NCBI RefSeq assembly: GCF_900101785.1
Contig: NZ_LT629688.1
Span: forward strand, 3,844,001 to 3,908,000
Length of the DNA stretch: 64,000 nucleotides
Source: Auraticoccus monumenti
GTDB lineage: Bacteria > Actinomycetota > Actinomycetes > Propionibacteriales > Propionibacteriaceae
Reading direction: 5' to 3'
A model generated the notes under the pieces. That model was not told where the DNA came from. It worked only from the letters and a program-made list of their open reading frames with translations, and did not search any database. The translations under genes were made by a program, and so were the position numbers. This document shows positions 3,486 through 52,183 of the stretch, piece by piece. Positions within the stretch are counted from its first letter, which is position 1. Each line of letters opens with the position of its first letter.

Positions 3486-3508
3486 GTGTCAGAGGCGGTC
3501 CGTAGCTT
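3486..3508 (+). promoter_or_regulatory. Damage-type (PafBC-like) promoter of the DUF222-HNH gene
   Basis: GTGTCAGAG (3486-3494), eight bases, then TAGCTT (3503-3508), six bases before ATG 3515. It has the same geometry as the promoters of uvrA, uvrB, uvrC and polA in this window and resembles the mycobacterial TTGTCRGTG-N8-TANNNT motif. Confidence 0.6.
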
Positions 3509-3514
3509 CGCTGC

Positions 3515-5035
3515 ATGGTCGCAGTCCACGAGGTGCTCGCAACGGTGCCGCAGTCGCTGGCCCCGGTCGATCCCCTCGTGCCCGACGAGGCGCCCGGTGC
3601 TGAGCTCAGTGCGTCCTCGATCGGGTCGTGGACCGAGCGTCTGGCGGCTACCGGCCTGCGCGGTGTGGAGCCGGCGGCACTCGTCGATGTGATCCGGGCG
3701 TTGGAGGGGCTGAAGTGCGCTGCCGAGGCGGTCCAGGCCGCCGCCGCGACCGCCCTGGACCGGGAGACCCGCGCCGAGGAACAACGCCAGGGTGTCCCCG
3801 CGGCCCGGCAGGGGCGGGGTGTGGCCGCCCAGGTCGCCCTGGCCCGGCGGGAGTCACCCGCGCGGGGCCGGCAGCACCTCGGCCTGGCGCTCGTGCTGGA
3901 CCGGGAGCTGCCCCACACCTTCGCAGCGCTCCGGGCCGGGCGGATCACCGAGTGGCGGGCCACCCTGCTGGCCCGGGAGACCGCCTGCCTGTCCCGGGAG
4001 CACCGCCGCGAGGTCGACCAGGCACTCGCCGCCGACGCGGACCGGTTGGAGGCGATGGGCGAGGGAGAGCTGGTCGCCGAGGCCCGCGCCCGCTCCTACC
4101 GGCTCGACCCCGAGGCCGCGGTGCAGCGACGCCGTCGCGCCGAGGCCGAGCGGCGGGTCAGCCTGCGACCGGCGCCGGACACGATGAGCCAGCTCAGCGC
4201 CCTGCTCCCGGTGAAGGACGGGGTCGCGGTCCACGCCTCCCTCTGCCGGCAGGCCGACGCCGTGGTCGCCGCCGGTGACGGACGCAGCCGCGGGCAGATC
4301 ATGGCCGACACCCTGGTCGAGCGCATCCTCGGCACCAGCCACCCCAGCGCCCGGCCGCACCAGAGCGAGGACGCAGCTGCCCGGTCCCAGCCCCACGAGC
4401 ACCAGGCCAGCGGCGGCGCGGCCACGGACGGCGGGGTGGGTGGCAGCTCAGGTGGGAGGAGTGAAGGGGCGAGCGCGGCGGACACGTCGGTGATGATCCA
4501 CCTCCTGGTCTCCGACTCCGTCCTGTTCGGGGCCCCTGGAGCGGGTCATGTCGACGGCTACGGACCCGTCCCCGGCGACCTGGCCCGCCAGCTCGCCACC
4601 GCCGACCGCGCCTGGATCCGCCGCCTCTACACCACTCCCACCACCGGCGAGCTGATCGCCGCCGAGAGCCGCGCCCGCCGGTTCCCACCCCGGCTGGCCC
4701 AGCTGGTCCGACTGCGGGACCGGACCTGCCGCACCCCGTGGTGCGACGCCCCGATCCGGCACACCGACCACATCATCGCCGCCAGCGACGGCGGCACCAC
4801 CTCGCTCGCCAACGGGCAAGGACTTTGCGAGGCCTGCAACTACGCCAAGGAGTCACCCGGCTGGACCGCCCGACCACGCCCCGGGCCCCGCCACACCGCC
4901 CAGACCACCACGCCCACCGGGCACGGCTACCAGTCCACGGCACCACCGCCGCTCGATCCCCTGCGCCCGGATGTGTCGGTCGCCCCGTCCTCACCCCGGG
5001 ATGAAGCGAGGCAGGAGCACACGCTGACGGCGTGA
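3515..5035 (+). CDS. DUF222 / HNH endonuclease (13E12-repeat-type protein)
   Basis: A 506-residue protein with an N-terminal DUF222 region (about residues 30-270) and a C-terminal HNH nuclease module (about 400-445) reading CRTPWCDAPIRHTDH, then SLANGQGLCEACNYAK: paired cysteines, the DH catalytic dyad and a late Asn. This architecture is the actinobacterial 13E12 repeat family, often multicopy and partly DNA-damage inducible. A 50-residue low-complexity insert rich in Gly, Ser and His separates the domains. ATG at 3515 sits six bases after a TAGCTT -10 box, so the mRNA is probably leaderless. The natural substrate is unknown. Confidence 0.88.
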   Translation: MVAVHEVLATVPQSLAPVDPLVPDEAPGAELSASSIGSWTERLAATGLRGVEPAALVDVIRALEGLKCAAEAVQAAAATALDRETRAEEQRQGVPAARQGRGVAAQVALARRESPARGRQHLGLALVLDRELPHTFAALRAGRITEWRATLLARETACLSREHRREVDQALAADADRLEAMGEGELVAEARARSYRLDPEAAVQRRRRAEAERRVSLRPAPDTMSQLSALLPVKDGVAVHASLCRQADAVVAAGDGRSRGQIMADTLVERILGTSHPSARPHQSEDAAARSQPHEHQASGGAATDGGVGGSSGGRSEGASAADTSVMIHLLVSDSVLFGAPGAGHVDGYGPVPGDLARQLATADRAWIRRLYTTPTTGELIAAESRARRFPPRLAQLVRLRDRTCRTPWCDAPIRHTDHIIAASDGGTTSLANGQGLCEACNYAKESPGWTARPRPGPRHTAQTTTPTGHGYQSTAPPPLDPLRPDVSVAPSSPRDEARQEHTLTA

Positions 5036-7128: not shown

Positions 7129-7159
7129 CGCCCCGCCCTCCTGCTCGGAAACCGTGAGC

Positions 7160-7165
7160 AGTCTA
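7160..7165 (-). promoter_or_regulatory. -10 box of ctaB
   Basis: On the minus strand TAGACT fits TANNNT and lies 31 bases before the TTG start. Beside it is the short inverted repeat CTGCTC...GAGCAG (7141-7161), which overlaps the expected transcript start. Confidence 0.4.
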
Positions 7166-7266
7166 GGGGCTGCCCCCCGCGGAGGACGATTCGCGGGGGC
7201 CCGGCGAAGGGGTGGTGTGAGTCACCCCGACCCCCTGCGTCCACCACCCGACGGGCACCCGCGAGC

Positions 7267-7289
7267 CTGTCGGTGGAGCCCACTAGGGT
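7267..7289 (+). promoter_or_regulatory. Damage-type (PafBC-like) promoter of the tkt operon
   Basis: CTGTCGGTG (7267-7275), eight bases, TAGGGT (7284-7289). It matches TTGTCRGTG-N8-TANNNT at all but one defined position. Unlike the repair genes here it is not leaderless: ATG 7373 lies about 77 bases downstream of the predicted transcript start, and the leader contains a CCCCGG-CTCGA-CCGGGG hairpin (7327-7343). Confidence 0.5.
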
Positions 7290-7372
7290 GGAACCGTCAG
7301 CTCGCACGACTCGAGCCTTCGGACGTCCCCGGCTCGACCGGGGTATCGACGAGTGAAGGGAACGCCTCCGCG

Positions 7373-9595
7373 ATGAGCACCACCACCACGAGCCACGCCG
7401 TCCACCCCGACGACTGGACCGAGGTCGACGCCCGCGCGGTCGACACCGTCCGCGTCCTGGCTGCCGACTCCGTCCAGAACAAGGGCAACGGCCACCCCGG
7501 GACGGCCATGAGCCTGGCCCCGGTGGCCTACCAGCTCTTCCAGAAGACGATGGTCCACAACCCGGCCAACCACCAGTGGCCCGGCCGCGACCGCTTCGTG
7601 CTCAGCTGCGGGCACTCCGCCCTCACCCTCTACATCCAGCTCTACCTGGGCGGCTGGGGGCTCGAGCTCGAGGACCTCCGCGCCCTGCGCACGCACGGCT
7701 CGAAGACCCCCGGCCACCCCGAGCACGGCCACACCGACGGCGTCGAGGTCACCACCGGCCCGCTCGGCCAGGGCATCGGCAACGCGGTGGGCATGGCCAT
7801 GGCCGCCCGTCGCGAGCGCGGCCTGTACGACCCCGAGTCCGCCCCGGGCGAGTCGCTGTTCGACCACCAGATCTACTGCCTGGCCTCCGACGGCGACATC
7901 GAGGAGGGCATCTCCAGCGAGGCCTCCTCCCTGGCCGGCACCCAGAAGCTCGGCAACCTCACCCTCATCTACGACGCGAACCAGATCTCCATCGAGGACG
8001 ACACGGTGATCGCGCTGTCGGAGGACACCGCCGCCCGCTACGCCGCCTACGGCTGGCACGTCCAGACCATCGACTGGACCGCTGGTGGCGACTACGTCGA
8101 GGACGTCGCCGCGTTCGCCGACGCGCTGGCCGCGGCCCGCGCCGAGACCGACCGCCCGAGCTTCATCCAGCTCCGCACCATCATCGGCTTCCCCGCCCCG
8201 AAGCTGCAGAACACCGGCAAGGCGCACGGGTCCGCGCTGGGGGCCGAGGAGGTCGCCGCCACCAAGGAGGTGCTCGGCTTCGACCCCGAGAAGTCCTTCG
8301 AGGTCTCCGAGGAGGTCATCGCGCACACCCGCGGGCTGCTCGAGCGCGGTCAGCAGGTCGAGGCCGAGTGGCAGCAGCGCTTCGACCAGTGGGCCGAGGC
8401 CAACCCCGAGCGCCACCAGCTCTGGCAGCGGATGCAGACCCGCACCCTCCCCGACGGCTGGGACGCCGACCTGCCGACCTGGGACGCCGACCCCAAGGGC
8501 GTCGCCACCCGCAAGGCCTCCGGCGCGGTGATCAACGCCATCGGCGCCAAGGTGCCGGAGTTCTGGGGCGGCTCGGCCGACCTCGCCGAGTCCAACAACA
8601 CCACCCTCGAGGACTCCCCCAGCTTCCTGCCCGAGGACCGCTCCTCGAAGATGTTCAGCGGCAACCGCTACGGCCGGGTGCTCCACTTCGGCATCCGAGA
8701 GCACGCCATGGGCGCGATCATGAACGGCATCGCCGTGCACGGCGGGACCCGCCCCTTCGGCGGCACCTTCCTGACCTTCAGCGACTACATGCGCCCCTCG
8801 GTCCGCCTCGCCGCGCTGATGAACCTCCCGGTCACCTACGTCTGGACCCACGACTCCATCGGTCTGGGCGAGGACGGCCCCACCCACCAGCCGATCGAGC
8901 ACGTCCCCTCGCTGCGGCTGATCCCGGGGCTGGACGTCGTCCGCCCCGCCGACGCCAACGAGACCGCCGCGGCCTGGGCGCAGGTCATGCGCAACAACGA
9001 CCGCCCGGCCGGGCTCGCCCTCAGCCGGCAGAACCTGCCGGTCTTCCCCCGCGGAGAGGACGGCTTCGCCACCACCGAGCACGTGGCCAAGGGTGCCTAC
9101 GTCCTCAAGGACTTCGGTGACGGTGAGCCGCAGGTGCTGCTGATCGGCACCGGCTCGGAGGTCCAGCACGCCGTCGCCGCCGCCGAGAGCCTGGCCGCCG
9201 AGGGCATCACCGCCCGGGTCGTCTCGATGCCCTGCCGGGAGTGGTTCGACGAGCAGGACGACGCCTACCGCGAGTCCGTGCTGCCCTCCTCGGTCAAGGC
9301 CCGGGTCAGCATCGAGGCCGCCGTGCCGCAGGGCTGGCACGACATCACCGGTGACGCCGGGCGGGCCATCGGGATCAACCACTTCGGCGCCTCCGCCCCG
9401 GCGGAGACCCTCTTCGAGGAGTACGGCTTCACCGCCGAGAACGTGGTGGCCGCCGCCCGCGAGAGCCTGGCCGCCGCCGAGGCGCTCACCTCCGCGCCCG
9501 GCACCGTCCCCACGCACCGCGGCCAGTCCGGCCCTGCCTCGGTCGGCGACGACGCGGCCAACCCCGAGGCCGAGGGCACCAACGAGCGTTCCTGA
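7373..9595 (+). CDS. tkt: Transketolase
   Basis: A thiamine-diphosphate enzyme moving two-carbon ketol units in the non-oxidative pentose phosphate pathway. The 740 residues include [13 protein letters not shown] near 39, the thiamine-binding [14 protein letters not shown] near 171-184, and [11 protein letters not shown] of the pyrimidine domain. It is slightly long for the family because of a polar C-terminal tail of about 35 residues ending in [14 protein letters not shown] 7373 is preceded by AAGGGA at a long spacing; the open frame further upstream lacks family similarity. It is the first gene of the pentose-phosphate operon. Confidence 0.96.
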
Positions 9596-9638: not shown

Positions 9639-10751
9639 ATGAGCGAGCGACTGCAGCAGCTGGCCGAGGCCGGCGTCTCGATCTGGCTGGACGACCTGTC
9701 CCGGGAGCGGATCGCCTCCGGCGACCTGGCCCGCCAGGTGGCCGAGCGGTCGGTGACGGGGGTGACCACCAACCCGACCATCTTCGCCACCGCGGTCTCC
9801 ACGGGCGACAGCTACGAGCCCCAGCTGACCGAGCTCAAGGGCAGCGAGGTGTCTGACGCCATCACCGCGATCACCACCGACGACGTCCGCGCGGCCTGCG
9901 ACGTGCTCGGCCCGGTCGCCACCAGGACCGACGGCGTCGACGGCCGGGTCTCGATCGAGGTCGAGCCCGGGCTGGCCATGGACACCGACGGCACCGTCGC
10001 CCAGGCCAAGGACCTCCGCGCGCGGGTCGGGCGGCCCAACGTGCTGATCAAGATCCCGGCCACCGAGCCGGGCCTCCCGGCGATCCGTTCCGTCATCGCG
10101 GCGGGGATCAGCGTCAACGTCACGCTGATCTTCTCCCTGCAGCGCTACCGCGCCGTCCTCGACGCCTACCTCAGCGGGCTCGAGGACGCCGCCGACGCCG
10201 GGCACGAGCTGTCCGACATCCACTCGGTGGCCTCGTTCTTCGTCTCCCGCGTGGACTCCGAGGTCGACAAGCGCCTGGACGCCATCGGCACCGACGAGGC
10301 CAAGGCCCTCAAGGGCAAGGCCGCCGTGGCCAACGCCCGGCTGGCCCACGCCCTGTTCCGCCGGGTGGTCTCCGGGGAGGAGCTGGACGGCCGCTGGCCC
10401 GCCCTGGCGGCCAAGGGCGCCCGCCCGCAGCGTCCGCTCTGGGCCTCCACCGGCGTCAAGGACCCGAACCTGCCCGACACCCTCTACGTCACCGAGCTGG
10501 TCACCTCCGACACGGTCAACACCATGCCCGAGAAGACCATGGACGCCTTCGCCGACCACGGCGAGGTCGAGGGCGACCGGGTGGTGGACCTGGTCGCCGA
10601 GGCCGAGGCCACCATGGCCGACCTGGAGCGCGTCGGGATCGACATCGACGACGTCACCCGGGTCCTGGAGGAGGAGGGCGTGAAGAAGTTCGCCGACTCC
10701 TGGGACGAGCTGGTCAGCACCGTCCAGGAAGCCATCAGCGCCGCCGCCTGA
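9639..10751 (+). CDS. tal: Transaldolase
   Basis: Transfers dihydroxyacetone units between sugar phosphates in the pentose phosphate pathway. At 370 residues it belongs to the long actinobacterial type. VTTNPTIF (42-49) and the Schiff-base lysine K138 in NVLIKIPAT are intact, as is an [12 protein letters not shown] segment later. ATG 9639 follows GGAAGGA at good spacing, 43 bases after tkt. Confidence 0.95.
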
Positions 10752-10785: not shown

Positions 10786-12321
10786 TTGCTCGACCTGAAC
10801 CGCCCCAACCCGCTGCGGGATGCCCAGGACCGGCGGCTGCCCCGCATCGCCGGGCCCTGCGTGCTGGTCATCTTCGGCGTCACCGGTGACCTCTCGCGCA
10901 AGAAGCTGATGCCCGCGGTCTACGACCTGGCCAACCGGGGGCTGCTGCCGCCCGGCTTCGCGCTGGTCGGCTTCGCCCGCCGCGACTGGGCCAACGAGGA
11001 CTTCGCCCAGATCGTGCACGACTCGGTCAAGGAGCACGCCCGCACCCCCTTCCGCGAGGAGGTGTGGCAGCAGCTGCTGGAGGGCATCCGCTTCGTCCCC
11101 GGCGACCTCAACAGCGACGCCTCGTTCGAGGAGCTGAAGAACACCATCCTCGAGCTCGACGAGGCCCGCGGCACCGGGGGCAACCACGCCTTCTACCTCT
11201 CCATCCCGCCGGGTCTCTTCGACGAGGTGGTCGGCCAGCTCCGCCGCCACGGCCTCGCCGAGCAGCGTGGCGGGCAGTGGAGCCGGGTGGTCATCGAGAA
11301 GCCCTTCGGTCACGACCTCGAGAGCGCGCAGGAGCTCAACCGGATCGTGTCCAGCGTCTTCCCCTCCCAGTCGGTCTTCCGCATCGACCACTACCTGGGC
11401 AAGGAGACGGTCCAGAACATGCTGGCGCTGCGCTTCGCCAACCAGCTGTTCGAGCCGGTGTGGAACCGCAACTACATCGACCACGTGCAGATCACCATGG
11501 CCGAGGACATCGGCATCGGCGGGCGTGCCGGGTACTACGACGGCATCGGCGCCGCCCGCGACGTGATCCAGAACCACCTGCTGCAGCTGCTGGCGCTGAC
11601 GGCGATGGAGGAGCCCACCTCCTTCGACGCCCGCCAGCTCCGCTCGGAGAAGCAGAAGGTGCTCGCCGCGGCCCGCCCACCGGTCGACCTGGACGCCCAC
11701 ACCGCCCGCGGCCGCTACGACGGCGGCTGGGCCGGCGGGGTCAAGGTCAACGGCTACGCCGAGGAGGAGGGGGTCTCCCCGGAGTCCATCACCGAGACCT
11801 TCGCCGCGATCCGGGTCGACATCGACAACCGGCGCTGGGCCGGGGTGCCCTTCTACCTGCGCACCGGCAAGCGGCTGGCCCGCCGCGTCACCGAGGTGGC
11901 GCTCAGCTTCCGCAAGGCGCCGCACCTGCCCTTCACCAACTCCGACACCGAGGCCCTGGGCACCAACGCCCTGGTGATGCGGATCCAGCCCGACGAGGGC
12001 ATCACGCTCCGCTTCGGGGCCAAGGTCCCGGGCACCCAGATGGAGATCCGCGAGGTCAACATGGACTTCGCCTACGGGGGCGCCTTCACCGAGTCCAGCC
12101 CGGAGGCCTACGAGCGGCTGATCCTCGACGTCCTGCTGGGTGACCCGCCGCTGTTCCCCCAGCACGAGGAGGTCGAGCTCTCCTGGAAGATCCTCGACCC
12201 GGTGCTGGACCACTGGGCGGAGACGGCGACCAAGCCGGAGAAGTACCACCCCGGCTCGTGGGGCCCGCAGAGCGCGCACGACATGCTCGCGCGCGACGGC
12301 TTCACCTGGCGACGGCCCTGA
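10786..12321 (+). CDS. zwf: Glucose-6-phosphate 1-dehydrogenase
   Basis: Oxidises glucose-6-phosphate to 6-phosphogluconolactone with NADP+, the entry step of the oxidative branch. The 511 residues carry the N-terminal nucleotide loop IFGVTGDLSRKKL and the active-site signature RIDHYLGKE. It starts at TTG 10786, supported by AAGGAG eight bases upstream. It lies 34 bases after tal and just before opcA, whose product is needed for full activity of actinobacterial Zwf. Confidence 0.96.
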   Translation: MLDLNRPNPLRDAQDRRLPRIAGPCVLVIFGVTGDLSRKKLMPAVYDLANRGLLPPGFALVGFARRDWANEDFAQIVHDSVKEHARTPFREEVWQQLLEGIRFVPGDLNSDASFEELKNTILELDEARGTGGNHAFYLSIPPGLFDEVVGQLRRHGLAEQRGGQWSRVVIEKPFGHDLESAQELNRIVSSVFPSQSVFRIDHYLGKETVQNMLALRFANQLFEPVWNRNYIDHVQITMAEDIGIGGRAGYYDGIGAARDVIQNHLLQLLALTAMEEPTSFDARQLRSEKQKVLAAARPPVDLDAHTARGRYDGGWAGGVKVNGYAEEEGVSPESITETFAAIRVDIDNRRWAGVPFYLRTGKRLARRVTEVALSFRKAPHLPFTNSDTEALGTNALVMRIQPDEGITLRFGAKVPGTQMEIREVNMDFAYGGAFTESSPEAYERLILDVLLGDPPLFPQHEEVELSWKILDPVLDHWAETATKPEKYHPGSWGPQSAHDMLARDGFTWRRP

Positions 12322-12337
12322 GCACGGAGAGGCACCG

Positions 12338-13525
12338 ATGATGATCGAGCTGAAGTCCACCAACTCCTCCAAGGTCGCCAGCGCCCTGATCAAGGCCCGT
12401 CGCAACGCCGGCAGCCCGACCATGGGCATGGTGATGACCCTGATCGTGGTGACCGACGGTCGCGGTTACCAGCGGGCCGCCGAGGCGGCGCTGGCCGCCA
12501 GCCGCGAGCACCCCTGCCGGCTGCTGCTGGTGGTCACCTCCACCACCACGAAGACCTCCGGCCTGGACGCCGAGATCCACCTCGGCGAGCGGGTGCCCGG
12601 GGAGACCGTGGTGCTGCGGATGCGCGGCGAGGTGGCCGAGCACCCGGCCTCCGTCGTCCTCCCGCTGCTGCTGCCGGACTCCCCCGTGGTCGCCTGGTGG
12701 CCCGGGGACGCCCCGCACTCGCTGTCGGAGGACCCGATCGGTGCGCTGGCCAACCGCCGGATCACCGACGCCGACGGCACCCGCGACCCGGTGGGCAGCC
12801 TGGAGGCCCGTGCCGCCCACCACGGTCCCGGCGAGACCGACCTGACCTGGACCCGGCTCACCCCCTGGCGCGCCCTGCTGGCCGCGGCCGTCGACCAGTA
12901 CCCGGCCACCTTCACCGCCGCGGCGGTGGAGGCCAAGCGCGGTCACGCCGGCGCCCAGCTGATGGCGGCCTGGCTGGAGGACCGGCTGGGCGTCGAGGTC
13001 GCGGTGAAGGCCACCAAGGGCCCGGGCATCACCGGGGTCCGGCTGACCACCGCGGCCGGTGACATCTCCCTGACCCGCGACGACGGCCTGCTGGCCGAGT
13101 ACGCGGTGCCCGGGCAGCCTCGGCGGCTGGTCGCCCTCAAGCGGCGCGACACCGAGGACCTGATCGCCGAGGAGCTGCGGCGGATGGACGACGACGACAT
13201 CTTCGAGTCCGCCGCCCACGTCCTGGTCCGACGCTCCGAGCGCGCCAGGGCGGCCAAGGCGAAGGACACCGGCACGGGCACCACGAAGACCACCGGGACG
13301 GCCACGAAGAAGACCGCCGCGGCCAGGAAGACCGCGGGCACGACCAAGAAGGCGGCGACCTCGCGTCCGCGCAGGTCCATCGCCGCGAAGACGTCAGACA
13401 GCACCAGCAACGGCCCGTCGGGGTCGGGCCGTCCGGAACCCACCTCGAGCACCGAGGGTCCCGGCTCCGGCGGCAGCGCCACCCACGAGGCGACCGACGC
13501 CCCCGGGGCGACCACCACCAGCTGA
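12338..13525 (+). CDS. opcA: Glucose-6-phosphate dehydrogenase assembly protein OpcA, with H1-like tail
   Basis: OpcA is required for assembly or activity of Zwf in cyanobacteria and actinobacteria. Residues 1-300 look like the normal family, including LVVVTSTTTK and VVAWWPGDAP. The remaining ~95 residues are unusual: a Lys/Ala/Thr-rich stretch (for example TKKTAAARKTAGTTKKAATS) resembling histone H1 or HupB tails, then a Gly/Ser/Thr-rich end. Family members are typically near 300 residues, so this one (395) is extended. The start is one of two adjacent ATGs (12338, 12341) after GGAGAGG. Confidence 0.93.
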   Translation: MMIELKSTNSSKVASALIKARRNAGSPTMGMVMTLIVVTDGRGYQRAAEAALAASREHPCRLLLVVTSTTTKTSGLDAEIHLGERVPGETVVLRMRGEVAEHPASVVLPLLLPDSPVVAWWPGDAPHSLSEDPIGALANRRITDADGTRDPVGSLEARAAHHGPGETDLTWTRLTPWRALLAAAVDQYPATFTAAAVEAKRGHAGAQLMAAWLEDRLGVEVAVKATKGPGITGVRLTTAAGDISLTRDDGLLAEYAVPGQPRRLVALKRRDTEDLIAEELRRMDDDDIFESAAHVLVRRSERARAAKAKDTGTGTTKTTGTATKKTAAARKTAGTTKKAATSRPRRSIAAKTSDSTSNGPSGSGRPEPTSSTEGPGSGGSATHEATDAPGATTTS

Positions 13526-13536
13526 GGAGATCACCC

Positions 13537-14244
13537 GTGGCCACCCGCACCATCGTGCACAGCGACCCCGAGGCACTGATCCAGAGCGCGTCCAGCCGGC
13601 TGCTGGAGCGGCTGTCGCACCTGCAGTCCAGCGAGGGGGTGGCCCAGCTCTGCCTCACCGGCGGGCGGATCGCCAACCGCATCTACCGGGGCCTGGCCGA
13701 GCAGCTGCCCGGCTCCCCGCTCGACGGCACCCGCGTGGAGCTGTGGTGGGGCGACGAGCGCTTCGTCCCCACCGAGGACCCCGACCGCAACGCCGGCGAG
13801 GCCCTGGCCATCCTGGCGCCCTCGCTCGCCATGGACCCGTCCCGGGTGCACCCCATGCCGGCCGCCGACGGGAACGTCTCGATCGAGGACTCCGCCGCCG
13901 GCTACGCCACCGAGCTGGGTGAGACGACCTTCGACATCTGCCTGCTCGGGGTCGGCCCGGACGGGCACGTCGCCTCGATCTTCCCCGACCACCCCAGCCT
14001 GGAGCCCACCCCGGCCCGGGTGCTGGCGGTGCACGACTCCCCCAAGCCGCCGCCGCTGCGGCTCAGCCTCTCCCTGGCCACGCTGAACCGCTCCCGCGAG
14101 GTGTGGTTCGTGGTGAGCGGCGCGGACAAGGCCGAGGCGGTGCGCCGGGCCCAGTCCGGTGAGACGGGTCTGCCGGCGGCCATGGTCACCGGCCAGGAGG
14201 CGACGATCTGGCTGATCGACGAGGACGCGGCCTCCCAGCTCTGA
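13537..14244 (+). CDS. pgl: 6-phosphogluconolactonase
   Basis: Hydrolyses 6-phosphogluconolactone made by Zwf. The 235 residues contain LCLTGGRI near the N-terminus, WWGDERFVP and GVGPDGHVASIFPDH, all family hallmarks. GTG 13537 follows GAGGAG, 11 bases after opcA. It is the last gene of the tkt operon, followed by a strong hairpin at 14273-14308. Confidence 0.95.
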   Translation: MATRTIVHSDPEALIQSASSRLLERLSHLQSSEGVAQLCLTGGRIANRIYRGLAEQLPGSPLDGTRVELWWGDERFVPTEDPDRNAGEALAILAPSLAMDPSRVHPMPAADGNVSIEDSAAGYATELGETTFDICLLGVGPDGHVASIFPDHPSLEPTPARVLAVHDSPKPPPLRLSLSLATLNRSREVWFVVSGADKAEAVRRAQSGETGLPAAMVTGQEATIWLIDEDAASQL

Positions 14245-33704: not shown

Positions 33705-33727
33705 ACCTTAGGACGCGGCTCCGACAG
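33705..33727 (-). promoter_or_regulatory. Damage-type (PafBC-like) promoter of uvrC
   Basis: On the minus strand CTGTCGGAG (33727-33719), eight bases, TAAGGT (33710-33705), six bases, GTG. It is embedded in the last codons of the GH95 gene, so uvrC is transcribed separately. TAAGGTGG could be mistaken for a ribosome-binding site. Confidence 0.65.
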
Positions 33728-40136: not shown

Positions 40137-40159
40137 ATGCTATGCGGGGCTCCTGACAG
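40137..40159 (-). promoter_or_regulatory. Damage-type (PafBC-like) promoter of uvrA
   Basis: Minus strand CTGTCAGGA (40159-40151), eight bases, TAGCAT (40142-40137), seven bases, GTG 40129. The final AT of TAGCAT plus the next G form the spurious ATG start. Confidence 0.65.
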
Positions 40160-44450: not shown

Positions 44451-44473
44451 AGCCTACGACGGGGCTCCGACAG
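44451..44473 (-). promoter_or_regulatory. Damage-type (PafBC-like) promoter of uvrB
   Basis: Minus strand CTGTCGGAG (44473-44465), eight bases, TAGGCT (44456-44451), six bases, ATG. The 9-mer is identical to that of uvrC. Confidence 0.7.
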
Positions 44474-52160: not shown

Positions 52161-52183
52161 ACCCTACTGCGTGCCGCTGACAG
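52161..52183 (-). promoter_or_regulatory. Damage-type (PafBC-like) promoter of polA
   Basis: Minus strand CTGTCAGCG (52183-52175), eight bases, TAGGGT (52166-52161), seven bases, GTG 52153. Confidence 0.65.

Follow-up and report, generated by a model that had tools for sequence, protein, structure and literature searches.

The analysed window, 64,000 nucleotides of the Auraticoccus monumenti genome, carries five pentose-phosphate genes that follow one another on the same strand in the order tkt-tal-zwf-opcA-pgl (Table 1). This order, proposed in a preliminary description of the window, was confirmed by family matches, that of opcA falling below the NCBIfam curated cut-off. Gaps within the operon do not exceed about 45 nt when tal and opcA are taken to start at the beginning of their family matches and zwf at the earliest start codon in its frame; the actual zwf start could be about 70 nt downstream of that codon. 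Upstream of tkt and divergent from it lies ctaB (heme o synthase). A GTGGT...GTCAC-like segment between the two genes (window positions 7210-7232) is kept in the two closest relatives and is perhaps part of the ctaB promoter.

Table 1. Features of the pentose-phosphate operon, its promoter and the comparison sites in the A. monumenti window.
Feature	Position in window	Strand	Remarks
Comparison site before DUF222/HNH (13E12-type) gene, leaderless	3487..3508	+	same motif
PafBC-type -26 element CTGTCGGTG (RecA-NDp upstream half)	7267..7275	+	assigned by consensus matches and matrix score 25.6
Spacer GAGCCCAC, 8 nt between -26 and -10 elements	7276-7283	+	
-10 element TAGGGT	7284..7289	+	8 nt past the -26 element; CACTAGG(G/C)TGG kept in two closest relatives
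Predicted 77-nt 5' leader of tkt	7296..7372	+	start site 7296 inferred
tkt, transketolase	7373..9595	+	TIGR00232, 778 bits
tal, transaldolase	9639..10751	+	TIGR00876, 418 bits; start approximate, from family match
zwf, glucose-6-phosphate dehydrogenase	10786..12321	+	TIGR00871, 661 bits; first start codon of frame
opcA, glucose-6-phosphate dehydrogenase assembly protein	12338..13525	+	TIGR00534, 198.9 bits (curated cut-off 256.25 bits); start approximate
pgl, 6-phosphogluconolactonase	13537..14244	+	TIGR01198, 195 bits
Comparison site before uvrC, leaderless	33705..33726	-	same motif
Comparison site before uvrA, leaderless	40137..40158	-	same motif; two mismatches in -26 part
Comparison site before uvrB, leaderless	44451..44472	-	same motif
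Comparison site before polA, leaderless	52161..52182	-	same motif

The promoter region of tkt contains CTGTCGGTG-N8-TAGGGT at 7267-7289, 83 nt upstream of the ATG, with the sequence and coordinates first given for it. A TGTCRGTG-like -26 element separated by 8 nt from a TANNNT -10 is the arrangement that defines PafBC (RecA-NDp) promoters, for which the mycobacterial consensus is quoted as tTGTCRgtg-8 nt-TannnT (PMC5656591). Searching the window for TTGTCRGTG-N8-TANNNT with up to three mismatches returned 45 matches, against 17.2 expected from shuffles. The tkt site is the only one with a single mismatch and the other 44 have two or three, which bears out the suggestion that it is the closest match in the window. 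A consensus scan of 7130-7400 found no ordinary sigma-70 -35/-10 pair. SOS boxes follow the consensus TCGAAC-N4-GTTCGA near the promoter; the window has four matches with at most two mismatches, none of them near 7267, and we rejected tkt as a LexA-controlled SOS gene.

The core of the motif, TGTCRG-N10-TANNNT, occurs six times in the window, compared with 0.08 expected from 100 shuffles, and TGTCRG-Nk-TANNNT gave window sites at k=10 only, with zero matches at 30 other spacings. The six core sites precede tkt, uvrA, uvrB, uvrC, polA and a DUF222/HNH gene, and the earlier proposal that the tkt promoter is of the same type as those of the repair genes uvrA, uvrB, uvrC and polA thus stands. The genome is a single contig of 4,461,688 bases. 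Allowing at most one mismatch, it contains 95 matches to TGTCRGTG-N8-TANNNT, against 5 for the reversed pattern. Exact matches number 17, tkt included, where about 0.24 would be expected from window frequencies. It is therefore unlikely that the tkt site is a chance match.

We built a matrix from 21 leaderless A. monumenti sites, leaving tkt out. C precedes TGTC in 18 of these 21 sites, at the position where the mycobacterial consensus has T. Since the genome's own consensus begins with C, the one mismatch of the tkt site is the local norm and no real mismatch. The tkt site scored 25.6, within the leave-one-out range of 11.8 to 27.1 for the matrix sites and above 16 of the 21.

We retained 54 sites with an intact -10, namely 53 picked by eye from the 95 genome matches and the uvrA site, added from the window. 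Forty of them count as leaderless, a start codon following 5-9 nt after the -10; downstream reading frames were picked mechanically and are least certain at the non-leaderless sites. The tkt site is one of the 14 that are not leaderless, in agreement with the contrast drawn initially between tkt, which has a leader, and the repair genes, which have none. The leader was also said to contain a hairpin, and a CCCCGG-CTCGA-CCGGGG stem-loop can indeed be drawn in it. This part of the description did not hold up: the folding energy of the leader is no better than that of shuffled sequences (z +0.49; 135 of 200 shuffles as good).

These data bear on a different explanation, in which the real regulatory element would be the 5' leader of tkt with its hairpin, acting as an attenuator or RNA thermometer. 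A GC-rich stem is visible in the leaders of both A. monumenti and its sibling species Auraticoccus cholistanensis, and the two closest relatives have leaders about as long after their -10 (76 and 77 nt from -10 to ATG, versus 83 in A. monumenti). Yet 77-nt stretches from A. monumenti, the sibling and an allied genus (G015) gave z values of +0.49, -0.50 and +1.33, none better than shuffles; no Rfam family reached its gathering score in the window, and 7130-7400 holds no terminator-like site. On these grounds we rejected a hairpin or attenuator in the leader, and we give hardly any credence to leader-based control. The two relatives have their similar leader without the motif, which makes the leader a property of the tkt promoter and not of the damage motif.

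Family libraries were used to scan 31 of the 54 target genes, a chosen and not a random subset, and 15 of these 31 are repair or replication genes; the motif thus stands before repair genes of the genome itself, a second defining feature of PafBC (RecA-NDp) control. Besides uvrA, uvrB, uvrC and polA in the window, they encode an A-family polymerase, a SRAP protein, DnaX-like (DNA_pol3_delta2), AlkZ-like, UvrD-like, PriA-like, RecC-like and Mfd-like proteins, exonuclease VII, an exonuclease-domain protein and deoxyribonuclease IV. The remaining 16 scanned targets include a proteasomal ATPase, NAD kinase, MshC, a sigma factor, two peptidases, a luciferase-like protein and tkt. The NAD kinase gene, nadK (G000:C1:3637715-3638712; loci L339 and L351), has a leaderless damage-type motif scoring 18.8, and the gene for MshC, the mycothiol cysteine ligase (L014, G000:C1:3672522), has an exact leaderless one.

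Several further sites were observed in the same survey. A leaderless damage motif precedes the gene for a sigma-70 family factor of the SigX5/TIGR02960 type (L030, G000:C1:1051652). Exact motifs lie before genes for a patatin-like phospholipase (L007, G000:C1:2559793) and a YobI-like P-loop NTPase (L009, G000:C1:2791707), which are possibly defence genes under damage control. Nine of the 54 sites precede DUF222/HNH (13E12-type) genes, one of them in the window (3487-5035) and the others at L001, L006, L012, L017, L018, L327, L329 and L344, a group assigned by sequence grouping, with a Pfam check on the window copy only. These genes form a multicopy damage-linked family that is possibly mobile.

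WYL-domain matches occur at five places in the genome. At one of them, genome positions 3613753-3615854, homologues of PafB and PafC lie next to each other, so that both subunits are encoded, the third defining feature of PafBC (RecA-NDp) control. The PafB homologue matches chain 7p5x_AY of the Mycobacterium smegmatis PafBC structure (E 7e-60) and shares with the solved chain an AFxRxFERDKxELR stretch near the N-terminus. The PafC homologue, in which the Pfam HTH_PafC domain is present, matches chain 7p5x_AX (E 1.3e-37). According to published structural work, PafBC is activated by single-stranded DNA and is placed between the promoter and sigma domain 4, its PafB subunit lying over the -26 motif (PMC11804915); outward arginines of a PafB helix have been put forward as possible DNA contacts (PMC6789036). 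The tkt site fits this model of structure and activation without special assumptions.

The same motif, as P1, was once proposed to be read by ClgR, and a damage-type promoter in A. monumenti might likewise answer to an activator other than PafBC. Work cited in PMC5656591 describes the P1 motif as ClgR-recognised and the induction of repair genes as impaired in a clgR mutant. Later reports tie the motif to PafBC (PMC8223512, PMC11804915), in the solved complex it is PafB that occupies the -26 element, and A. monumenti encodes homologues of both subunits. We regard control by another activator as very improbable.

We read these sequences as likely to make tkt-tal-zwf-opcA-pgl damage-inducible, because the promoter is of the type found at the repair genes, repair and replication functions are frequent in the genome-wide set and both PafBC subunits are encoded. 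In this reading, to which we give a probability of about 0.7, a PafBC-type (RecA-NDp) element has been set onto an ordinary pentose-phosphate promoter and would raise transcription of the operon upon damage. RNA polymerase with the housekeeping sigma factor would use the tkt -10 at a basal level. As single-stranded DNA accumulates, PafB would bind the -26 element beside sigma, by the sigma adaptation solved for M. smegmatis. Activation by PafBC would then increase transcription of tkt-tal-zwf-opcA-pgl, and the capacity to supply NADPH and ribose-5-phosphate would be greater during repair. The gain from PafBC may be small for an operon of central metabolism whose expression is already high.

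Conservation before tkt had been suggested as a check on the motif, and its outcome was negative. We searched 147 genomes of the family (Propionibacteriaceae), found a tkt match in 139 and obtained 138 upstream regions from 137 genomes, A. monumenti included; G130 and G135 were left out for contig ends, as were second copies of G003, G031, G060, G077, G079, G094 and G102, and the upstream regions at L113, L270 and L281 are short. A second set, of named genomes, provided 79 of 80 tkt loci (L173 was dropped for having too little upstream sequence) and overlaps the family set, L172 for instance being the sibling. The tkt promoter of A. cholistanensis (F435) has CACTAGGCTGG at the -10, as does that of the allied genus (G015), and in neither is TGTCRG present at the right spacing. 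The -10 of A. monumenti aligns with those of its closest relatives, and only the upstream TGTCGGTG, which stands at the exact spacing, is new.

Among the 138 family regions, TGTCRG-N10-TANNNT was found in three, against 0.08 expected per spacing; other spacings gave one match at 18 and none at the remaining 29. Besides A. monumenti, the three comprise G067 (L110) and G116 (L113), with TGTCGG at the exact spacing (2 of 137 versus about 0.08 expected). These are two species of one other genus, and the site is missing from the upstream regions of the other ten genomes of that genus in which tkt was matched. The motif is thus absent from the sibling and from all but two of the 137 other family regions. 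The two sites scored 16.4 and 16.9, respectively, where the reversed-sequence control reached at most 11.0. No score was comparable to the 25.6 of A. monumenti in any of the 137 other family regions (best 16.9) or the 79 named ones (best 8.6). Retention at the same gene in relatives, which would support but does not define PafBC (RecA-NDp) control, is thus not seen at tkt.

Turnover is fast at other sites too. Among the 30 closest loci, the strict core was found once before tkt (A. monumenti itself) versus 15 times before polA, A. monumenti included. For polA and nadK these loci are the best 30 matches of 57 genomes searched and lean to close relatives; 14 of the 30 polA loci score at least 13, the A. 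monumenti polA site having been part of the matrix. With 8 of its 30 closest loci, A. monumenti included, scoring at least 10.7, nadK is weak as a conserved target, and its site is weaker in the sibling (14.6 versus 18.8). The uvrC site of the sibling is degenerate, GTGTCGCCG-N8-TAAGGT, with a score of 11.3. We counted a site as shared when its gene had more than 60% BLASTP identity to the gene behind a sibling site with at most one mismatch (L324, at 47%, was not counted). By this measure, once the DUF222 group is set aside, 9 of 31 leaderless A. monumenti sites have a counterpart at the same gene in A. cholistanensis; for the 14 sites that are not leaderless, tkt among them, the count is zero.

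Because the edges of the regulon turn over this quickly, even sites that are likely true are more often absent from the sibling than present there, and the lack of the motif in relatives makes the tkt site private without disproving it. Most of the compared sites differ between two species of one genus, which makes conservation a poor test for single PafBC sites. The same data could also mean that the match of TGTCGGTG upstream of the tkt -10 is fortuitous or neutral and of no regulatory importance. It is absent from the sibling and from almost all relatives examined, and tkt stands apart from the mostly leaderless sites in a class whose 0 of 14 recurrence indicates that it is richer either in chance sites or in private ones. 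Against this, exact matches exceed expectation genome-wide, the tkt score lies in the upper part of those of the training sites, and TGTCGGTG sits exactly on the -10 common to relatives; even a site that arose by chance would probably still work at this spacing. We consider a match of no consequence unlikely. Damage control of the operon is the reading we prefer, and the tkt site is probably a lineage-specific addition to the PafBC regulon; judging by the species compared, it looks like a recent and species-specific one.

If the site works, it would show in a simple way how an operon of central metabolism can be drawn into a stress regulon: where the activator acts by reprogramming the housekeeping polymerase, some eight bases at a fixed place before an existing -10 are enough. 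DNA repair would then be linked with the supply of NADPH and ribose, in parallel with the transketolase of the Deinococcus radiation regulon. Auraticoccus is named in the titles of papers on stone ruins and deserts.

Among the publications covered, none brings together PafBC, its promoter and transketolase, but the link may already have been described elsewhere; the main texts of two damage studies, PMC8151990 and PMC5656591, mention neither tkt nor zwf and use no transketolase or pentose terms. We rate the PafBC/RecA-NDp kind of promoter as already known and the tkt operon as new in being a species-private member. The A. monumenti site resembles the LexA-independent PafBC/RecA-NDp regulon of mycobacteria in its exact spacing, in the repair genes among the targets and in the presence of homologues of both PafB and PafC. 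It differs in that the A. monumenti consensus starts with C and not T, and in that the operon controlled from tkt would serve central carbon metabolism and has a predicted leader of 77 nt.

Within A. monumenti, the closest parallel in function is nadK, which encodes an NADP-supplying enzyme behind the same type of motif and, unlike tkt, is leaderless. That nadK and MshC also carry the motif suggests a reductant branch of the regulon, and the reported membership of ergothioneine genes in the PafBC regulon of M. smegmatis (PMC8223512) fits such a branch. In Deinococcus radiodurans, tkt (DR2256) belongs to the DdrO/IrrE radiation-desiccation response regulon; DdrO sites are listed for it, and it appears to have risen late in a strain losing DdrO (PMC8533742). 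Transketolase there is under a DNA-damage regulon, as we predict for A. monumenti, but the regulators and operators are unrelated, with repression by DdrO in Deinococcus and predicted activation by PafBC in A. monumenti. A broader proposal, tentative and rather doubtful at present, is that the supply of NADPH and pentoses has come under damage regulons repeatedly: in addition to repair, PafBC would drive a reductant branch made up of the pentose-phosphate operon, NAD kinase and MshC, and the capture of transketolase would have happened at least twice, through DdrO and through PafBC, and perhaps again in the genus of G067 and G116.
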